From Thermoplasmata archaeon (GTDB lineage: Archaea; Thermoplasmatota; Thermoplasmata; Lutacidiplasmatales; UBA184), in contig JAKASQ010000001.1 in NCBI GenBank assembly GCA_021828195.1, positions 1 through 64,000 of the forward strand: a stretch of 64,000 nucleotides of DNA. The letters run 5' to 3'. Each line of letters opens with the position of its first letter. Within the stretch, counting starts at the first letter, position 1. The notes under the pieces were generated by a model, which worked only from the letters and a program-made list of their open reading frames with translations, did not search any database and had not been told where the DNA came from. Below are positions 21,451-23,087 of this stretch, one piece after another. Both the position numbers and the translations under genes were made by a program.

Positions 21451-22254
21451 TCACCCGTGTCGAGGCGCACGCTCCTTGGGGATCGGCCGTCCCCGGGGAG
21501 GCAGGCCGGTCTCGAGCAGGCGCGCCAGCAGCACTTCGTGCTTGCGCTCGTCCGACTCCATGCTCTCCCACAGGATCGCGAGGACCCCTCCCAGCTCGGT
21601 CGCCACGCCCGGGGCCGTTCTCGACTCGGCCTCGTGCTCCTTCGCAATGAGCCGATCGATGTCCGCCCGAGTGATGCCGGTCGCGACGGTGCGATGCAGC
21701 CCGCGATCCAGATACGATGCGATCGACGCGACGATCTCGGCGTGGCGCAGGCTGTCGGAGGCGATCTGCCGGAAGATCGCGCGGGTCAATTCGTCCCGCG
21801 ACTTCTGCGCGAGGCGCATGCAGTCCGCTACCGCGGTCTGTTCGAGCGTGATGCGCGCTCGCAGGAACCGTGCGAACTCCGGGTTCGCCGGCGGCGCGGG
21901 GAGCTCTCCGCCGGTCATCGCCGGGGGGATCGGGAGGGGCGGCCGTCCCGCCGAGGAAAGATCGCGGGCGGCTTCGAGGAGCAGCACGGGAGCGATGTCG
22001 CCGGGGTGTTCCGCCGAGACCAGCCGCTGGGCCACGACCCGCGCGACGCGGCGGACCTCTTCGTGCGTGCGCGCGTGCGCGAGTGGGCCCCGGAGGCGCT
22101 TGCCCGATAGGTACTGGGAGATCGCGGAAGGAGCGAGCCCGAGGAGCTCGGCGGCCCGCCGAGCCGGAAGCCCGAAGGTGTCGACGAGCTCCCGGGCCAC
22201 GAGCGCTTGGGTCAGTTGCACCCACAGGGCCGGAGAGGCTCCGGAGGAGGGCAC
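21451..22254 (-). CDS. HTH transcription regulator with C-terminal ferritin-like domain
   Basis: Residues ~15-60 form an Xre-like helix-turn-helix (ARRAAELLGLAPSAISQYLS, then GKRLRG), as in archaeal one-component regulators. A ~60-residue helical/proline linker leads to a four-helix domain (~125-250) with a ferritin-like ligand pattern: Glu138 in helix 1, His171 in helix 2, Glu206/His207 in helix 3 and the ExxH Glu236-His239 in helix 4. The design suggests a DNA-binding protein whose sensory part binds iron or another metal. It lies 33 nt after a diiron-type haem-oxygenase-like gene on the same strand, probably as the second gene of one operon. Target genes and ligand are unknown. Confidence 0.75.
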   Translation of the reverse strand: MPSSGASPALWVQLTQALVARELVDTFGLPARRAAELLGLAPSAISQYLSGKRLRGPLAHARTHEEVRRVARVVAQRLVSAEHPGDIAPVLLLEAARDLSSAGRPPLPIPPAMTGGELPAPPANPEFARFLRARITLEQTAVADCMRLAQKSRDELTRAIFRQIASDSLRHAEIVASIASYLDRGLHRTVATGITRADIDRLIAKEHEAESRTAPGVATELGGVLAILWESMESDERKHEVLLARLLETGLPPRGRPIPKERAPRHG

Positions 22255-22287
22255 GCTCCACCCTCCTCGCTCGACGACGGAGCGGTC

Positions 22288-23028
22288 CTACGCAGCGGGT
22301 CGGACCGTGCCGCTCGCGGCGGCCCCGGAGACGACGCCGTCCACGAGGAGGGCATGGAGGGAGAATCCGCGGAGCATCTGGTCCCACATCTGGCGTCGAA
22401 CCTCCGGCGTGCTCGCAAAAGCGGCCACGATCTCGCCGACCCACTGGCTGTGCTCCACGTCGGCCGTGACGTGGAGTCGATAGTACTCGAGGTGCTCTTC
22501 CTTCACGCCGTAGTGCGAGCGGAACGCCGGGAGCAGCCGCGCGCATAGATCGACGTTGGGGGGCTCGGACGATCCAGCGGCAGAGATGTAGAACGGGTTT
22601 TCCCGATTCGTGTAGAGGAAGTCATCGATCGCTACCATCGTGCTCGGAAGGAGCGGAGCCGCCTGGACCTGAGCGCGGGGCACCCCCAGGCCCTCGCAGA
22701 ACCTCAGCCAGAGCTCGGGGTGACCGGGCTCCTTGCCCTTCGGGTCGCCAGCCTCTTCGACGAGCTGGTCGAGCACCATCCGCCGGAACCGGTCGTTCTT
22801 CGGTTCCCAGCCCACCCGGGCGAATCGCTCCGCCATCGCGATCGGAACGCTGGCGAGCCAGGGATAGAACTGCTGCGCCCACGCCTGGACGAGGGCCTTC
22901 GGCGCCTCGCCCTTCTCGATCGCCGCGAAGAACGGGTGGGTCGCGAATGGGTGGTTCTGCATCTTGAACTTGGTGAGCTCGTCTCGGAATCGCTCCCCCG
23001 CGAATCGGTCCCACGGCGCCTCGCTCAT
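22288..23028 (-). CDS. Haem-oxygenase-like diiron protein (TenA/PqqC/CADD superfamily)
   Basis: This 246-residue, all-helical protein has a metal-ligand set like haem-oxygenase-like diiron oxidases: Glu91/92 (LVEEAGD), His103, Glu155 (SSEPPN) and HVTADVEH (His186-x3-Asp190-x2-His193). The last spacing is identical to the CADD/UndA-type diiron site, and it argues against the non-metal TenA and PqqC enzymes. Such enzymes oxidise fatty acids, amino acids or their own side chains (CADD makes p-aminobenzoate). AAATATCC on the minus strand ~20-25 nt before ATG 23028 is a plausible TATA box. It is co-directional with the HTH-ferritin gene and divergent from a CoA-transferase gene. Confidence 0.8.
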   Translation of the reverse strand: MSEAPWDRFAGERFRDELTKFKMQNHPFATHPFFAAIEKGEAPKALVQAWAQQFYPWLASVPIAMAERFARVGWEPKNDRFRRMVLDQLVEEAGDPKGKEPGHPELWLRFCEGLGVPRAQVQAAPLLPSTMVAIDDFLYTNRENPFYISAAGSSEPPNVDLCARLLPAFRSHYGVKEEHLEYYRLHVTADVEHSQWVGEIVAAFASTPEVRRQMWDQMLRGFSLHALLVDGVVSGAAASGTVRPAA

Positions 23029-23087
23029 CGACGCGAGCAGTCGGTCTCGGATATTTGGTCGGCAAGGTTCCGTGGTGAACCTCGCCT

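Follow-up and report, generated by a model that had tools for sequence, protein, structure and literature searches.

A putative metal-responsive regulator with a fused ferritin-like domain linked to metal-uptake genes in Thermoplasmatota

Comparative analysis of a 64,000-nucleotide stretch of contig JAKASQ010000001.1 from a Thermoplasmata archaeon (assembly GCA_021828195.1; hereafter the window) suggests that a protein combining a helix-turn-helix (HTH) and a ferritin-like domain acts as a metal-responsive regulator of divalent-metal uptake, with iron or manganese as the favoured metals. We consider this assignment, deduced from gene order, promoter motifs and residue conservation, to be likely. 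The window genome (7 contigs, 1.62 Mb in total) has Thermoplasmata MAGs as relatives, among them Candidatus Lutacidiplasma silvani. The original prediction described two adjacent minus-strand genes with helical-bundle metal-type residues, and both open reading frames were confirmed. They encode the HTH and ferritin-like regulator, designated F, and a haem-oxygenase-like diiron protein, designated P. Facing them and divergent from P are genes for a CaiB-type CoA-transferase (CoAT; PF02515, E = 2.1e-104) and an acyl-CoA dehydrogenase (ACAD). The indicated targets of F are genes of metal uptake located, in this genome, beyond the window. The features of the locus are as follows.

21451..22254, minus strand: F, HTH and ferritin-like regulator of 267 amino acids with a GTG start (open reading frame, Pfam, AlphaFold2 pLDDT 89, 71-member alignment A5)
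22096..22206, minus strand: HTH of F, residues 17–53, with Y48 and R53 invariant in the SQYLSGKR recognition region (HTH_3 match, invariant columns)
21505..21882, minus strand: predicted four-helix ferritin-like domain of F, residues 125–250 (AlphaFold2 domain model, Foldseek, EncB_fam)
21742..21843, minus strand: metal-type residues E138, S168 and H171 of F hairpin 1, with D167 and R170 (identical in 71 of 71 sequences)
21538..21639, minus strand: metal-type residues E206, E236 and H239 of F hairpin 2, with D235 and K238 (identical in 71 of 71 sequences)
22255..22287, minus strand: gap of 33 bp between P and F with an SD-like GGAGG and without a GTTCAC-N3-GTGAAC site (sequence)
22288..23028, minus strand: P, putative haem-oxygenase-like diiron oxidase/oxygenase of 246 amino acids (Pfam, NCBIfam and PDB matches; synteny)
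23064..23083, no strand assigned: palindrome AAGGTTCCGTGGTGAACCTC with the TATA-like boxes of the divergent P and CoAT genes on either side (conserved upstream of P)

Profile searches point to a fusion of an HTH with a ferritin-like domain. HTH_3 matched 17 of 18 F homologues at E ≤ 0.1 (best 9.5e-7), and the rubrerythrin/ferritin-like profile PF02915 gave weak matches to 16 of them (best 1.4e-4). For F of the window itself, the values were E = 0.0032 with 17.9 bits for HTH_3, where the cut-off is 23, and E = 0.0013 for PF02915, under the curated cut-off. A search with the HTH profile of F led to HigA/Cro-type HTH structures. Profile searches detected neither the Fe_dep_repress and Fe_dep_repr_C domains of the DtxR/MntR family nor a FUR domain in F, and a FUR domain was likewise not found in the window genome. 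Among 71 homologues, 18 positions are invariant: Y48 and R53 belong to the HTH, and the ferritin-like domain holds the other 16 (R134, E138, D167, S168, L169, R170, H171, A172, G185, E206, L228, S231, D235, E236, K238 and H239), the metal-type set among them. The candidate ligands E138, H171, E206, E236 and H239 named originally are all among them, whereas His207, named along with them, is variable (arginine in 30 and histidine in 27 of the 71 homologues).

AlphaFold2 predicted four helices with high confidence (residues 125–151, 155–183, 196–211 and 223–250), and the ferritin-like domain modelled alone reached a pLDDT of 93.9 and a pTM of 0.82. Foldseek searches with whole F or with the domain alone returned no structural homologue below an E-value of 0.001. 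The top matches belonged almost all to the ferritin superfamily, but with E > 0.1 and whole-bundle rmsd values of 12–20 Å. One hairpin superposed on Myxococcus xanthus EncB (7s5c) with a TMt of 0.83 and an rmsd of 1.7 Å over 58 columns (Foldseek). The NCBIfam profile EncB_fam matched 10 of 18 F members at E ≤ 0.01 (best 8.8e-6); F of the window, with 16 bits, lies far under the curated cut-off of 90 bits. Both hairpins show a +30/+33 spacing of their metal-type residues, E138/S168/H171 in the first and E206/E236/H239 in the second, as is also seen for Glu32, Glu62 and His65, the ferroxidase ligands of Rru-EncFtn (PMC11202242). Hairpin 2 carries the complete E/ExxH pattern (E206, E236xxH239), and hairpin 1 retains E138 and H171 with Ser168 in place of the glutamate. 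The recurrence of this spacing in both halves suggests a domain of two equivalent hairpins. Judged from these sequence features, the sensor of F is probably built from two fused EncFtn-like hairpins in which one bridging glutamate has been replaced by the invariant Ser168. This replacement suggests a weakened ferroxidase site or a mononuclear site, either of which would fit a sensor, and the metal site may possibly be swapped or dimeric.

A search of the phylum (390 genomes) located full-length F exclusively in the family of the window genome (f1), and nearly all matches outside f1 covered about 50 residues of the HTH. Scanning of species genomes yielded 78 F loci including distant full-length relatives with 28–32% identity from Pyrobaculum, Thermoproteus and Calditenuaceae. 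A class-wide search around Pyrobaculum found long matches in 19 genomes, one of them partial.

The genes beside F point to divalent-metal uptake. Of 74 Thermoplasmata loci from species genomes, 60 have a transporter gene of the ZIP-like (55) or NRAMP (5) type within 400 bp of F. At four of the remaining loci P stands in place of the transporter, and at one further locus an NRAMP gene is located 3 kb away. The NRAMP neighbour was firmly assigned (PF01566, E = 2.4e-34). Pfam support for the ZIP neighbour was weak, with 7 of 9 members matched and a best value of 3e-5, and the PDB yielded no match. The window genome contains a ZIP gene unlinked to F (G000:C6:347095), and its nearest relative, G300, possesses a second F copy beside an NRAMP gene. 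An NRAMP remnant comprising the C-terminal part only is found in the window genome (G000:C6:92048-92371; L169:7977-8378), and its intact relative in G300 is the one beside the second F copy. In G310, which belongs to a sister family where F was not found, an NRAMP gene and a gene of the DtxR family are arranged divergently about 0.5 kb apart (L225; G310:C41:8831-10776). Given this arrangement, F looks like a non-orthologous replacement of a metalloregulator. The window genome also carries a separate DtxR-family gene (G000:C2:151620).

Some F homologues occur in other settings. At one locus (L133:7945-9775) F adjoins genes for a NicO nickel transporter and NikR. Beside the Thermoproteales homologues, metal transporters were looked for and not found; there F stands opposite a conserved protein of 143 amino acids without Pfam match (L161, L162, L163, L198-L220). 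These two cases count against the proposed role of F in divalent-metal uptake. The Calditenuaceae homologue is followed by a phosphonate-type ABC transporter (L159:9021-11444). An encapsulin context was not seen in the F neighbourhoods read.

The F-linked transporter promoters share a palindromic site. Dyads were counted in 108 non-redundant upstream regions, with shuffles as control. The exact dyad TTCAC-N3-GTGAA was present in 32 regions; the best dyad of any kind in the shuffles reached 5. The resulting 15-bp consensus is GTTCAC-N3-GTGAAC. A motif score of at least 9 out of 10 was obtained for 50 of 61 F-linked ZIP/NRAMP promoters; of 484 other promoters at these loci, 4 reached this score (Fisher p = 6e-55, a value which ignores kinship and was calculated with promoters that are largely those used for motif discovery). 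The exact pattern occurs 0–2 times per f1 genome, and the ZIP promoters of the F-less genomes G004, G219, G269 and G377 scored 6–7 only, which is background level. Its enrichment at F-linked promoters and its absence from F-less ZIP genes make the palindrome a conserved candidate operator at metal-transport genes. The promoter layout is fixed: counted from the palindrome start, a second TTCAC half-site follows at +28/29 and a TATA-like box at +44/45 downstream. The window itself does not contain the F-linked palindrome, and the unlinked ZIP gene of the window genome carries GTCACAGTGTGAC 67–79 bp before its ATG, with GTCAC at +29 and, near +44, an ATTAT box. This site is the strongest sign of the putative target of window F. 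No metal gene was recognised alongside the other KTCAC-N3-GTGAM sites of this genome (C2:12302, C6:135343 and C6:652824).

As F is found beside metal-uptake genes that share one promoter site, it probably represents a new kind of metal-responsive switch. In the proposed mechanism, the HTH would bind GTTCAC-N3-GTGAAC, a site derived from comparative genomics, as a dimer, and the ferritin-like half would bind Fe(II) or Mn(II) through the invariant residues E138, H171, E206, E236 and H239. Occupancy by metal would change the DNA affinity of F and thereby set how strongly the uptake transporters of the ZIP-like and NRAMP types are expressed; where F and transporter are divergent, it would also set the expression of F itself. 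The likely target in the window genome would be the unlinked ZIP gene. F could act either as a metal-bound repressor or as a metal-free activator. The position of the palindrome upstream of the ZIP TATA box at a fixed distance fits an activator, the half-site next to the BRE fits repression, and for divergent F genes the palindrome near the TATA-like region of F fits autorepression.

Alternatively, F might control ZIP and NRAMP genes and yet sense O2, peroxide or redox state through oxidation of the bound metal more than the metal level. Ferritin-like diiron sites do react with O2 and H2O2, as established for EncFtn and rubrerythrin, and the nearly invariant C145 (60 of 71 homologues) and M146 (70 of 71) are close to E138. 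Nevertheless, we regard redox sensing as unlikely: the target genes are uptake transporters, and since loss of the bridging Glu62 abolished the ferroxidase activity of Rru-EncFtn (PMC11202242), the invariant Ser168 argues against an efficient oxidase-type site in F. It is also conceivable that the ferritin-like domain has a structural role, as a dimerisation module, and that the effector is something else, in line with models that lack a demonstrated closed metal site; however, the Glu/His/Asp set with its paired EncFtn spacing is invariant down to the Pyrobaculum homologues with 28–32% identity, which makes this explanation highly improbable.

The reading offered originally, that F senses iron, oxygen or a substrate and controls P and/or the CoAT/ACAD pathway, appears very unlikely to us. 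F and P are indeed adjacent on the same strand with a gap of 33 bp, and this adjacency is kept in G300 and in L086-L089, but it is restricted to a single clade. In the tree, the window and L086, L087, L089 and L090 form one clade (support 98/95) nested among ZIP-linked lineages, from which it follows that the adjacency is derived and arose once. P, CoAT and ACAD remain together, along with shikimate-pathway genes, where F is distant or absent. In G154 and G342, P and F share a contig and are separated by about 17 kb that includes shikimate, trp and ZIP genes; the simplest explanation of the adjacency is that such an intervening block was lost or moved elsewhere. The P/CoAT palindrome has a GTTCAC half in common with the F motif. 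It belongs, however, to the family GAGGTTC-N6-GAACCTC, which has a different spacing and is found next to CCAAATA upstream of P both with and without F. As it is kept in the F-less genomes G332, G004, G219 and G269, it is to be ascribed to another regulator, and the palindrome at 23064–23083 was rejected as an operator of F. On synteny, tree and operator evidence together, F and P were rejected as a functional pair, and with the F motif at the unlinked ZIP gene, control of the CoAT/ACAD pair is not supported either. From the notion of an iron-, oxygen- or substrate-responsive switch coupled to an oxidase, an iron-type metal response fits the neighbours of F, but the coupling is unsupported. 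P beside F is probably a bystander placed there by rearrangement, or at most a promoter donor: the short gap, the SD-like GGAGG and the missing motif of its own indicate that F of the window lineage may be transcribed from the promoter of P. In L087-L089, a degenerate version of the motif persists some 45 bp ahead of F.

The sensor folds known from prokaryotic metalloregulators are few and include those of DtxR, Fur, ArsR, MerR and NikR. In its presumed role as an HTH regulator beside NRAMP-type uptake genes with a palindromic operator, F resembles MntR, DtxR and IdeR, but its sensor is unrelated and does not match the DtxR metal domains. With EncFtn and EncB it shares the hairpin fold, the EncB_fam matches and the E/E/H spacing of +30/+33; it differs in having two hairpins in one chain, a serine for one bridging glutamate and a fused HTH. 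Rubrerythrin, sulerythrin and bacterioferritin are related to F by ferritin-superfamily Foldseek matches and the weak PF02915 match, but F is a putative regulator, and the E-ExxH spacing in these proteins is one turn longer (33/36). An analogy in function only exists with the eukaryotic FBXL5 and BRUTUS, in which a helical-bundle diiron-type domain serves as iron sensor (PMC12022348); these are ubiquitin ligases with a hemerythrin fold that do not bind DNA and share no homology with F. No description of the F architecture was found in the literature searched (open-access PMC text). On balance we lean towards F as an undescribed metalloregulator family of Lutacidiplasmatales-type Thermoplasmatota and, distantly, of Thermoproteales and Calditenuaceae. 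In this family, a fused EncFtn-like domain with one bridging glutamate exchanged for serine would sense iron or manganese, gate an HTH on GTTCAC-N3-GTGAAC and replace DtxR/MntR at ZIP and NRAMP genes. If so, the ferritin-like sensor would add to the known prokaryotic metalloregulator folds, show how a ferroxidase scaffold can be turned into a sensor by loss of a bridging glutamate, and parallel the eukaryotic hemerythrin-domain iron sensors. The analysis yields a candidate operator together with a set of putative target genes in an order of uncultured archaea from acidic soils.

P itself matched Pfam Haem_oxygenas_2 (E = 4.3e-19). The His-x3-Asp-x2-His and glutamate spacing recognised originally was confirmed by a ligand set of haem-oxygenase-like dimetal oxidases (HDO) invariant in 18 aligned rows (E91, E92, H103, E155 and H186-x3-D190-x2-H193). 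The closest solved structure is 9pj4 (2e-16), and P has the same HDO ligand motif as CADD and NePabS. A function as pABA synthase, hinted at by the shikimate neighbours and 9pj4, was rejected: NePabS consumes its Tyr25 and Lys159 (PMC11965152), and the aligned positions of P are an invariant F34 and R164, so that the sacrificial residues are absent. The score of P with the CADD/PabS profile TIGR04305 was 79.7 bits, under the cut-off of 200. BioE was also considered as a relative of P and dismissed, as the text of the BioE paper contained none of the haem-oxygenase-like terms looked for. By its predicted ligands and gene order, P is an HDO tied to acyl-CoA chemistry. In many relatives P also neighbours shikimate genes (L051-L066, L085).
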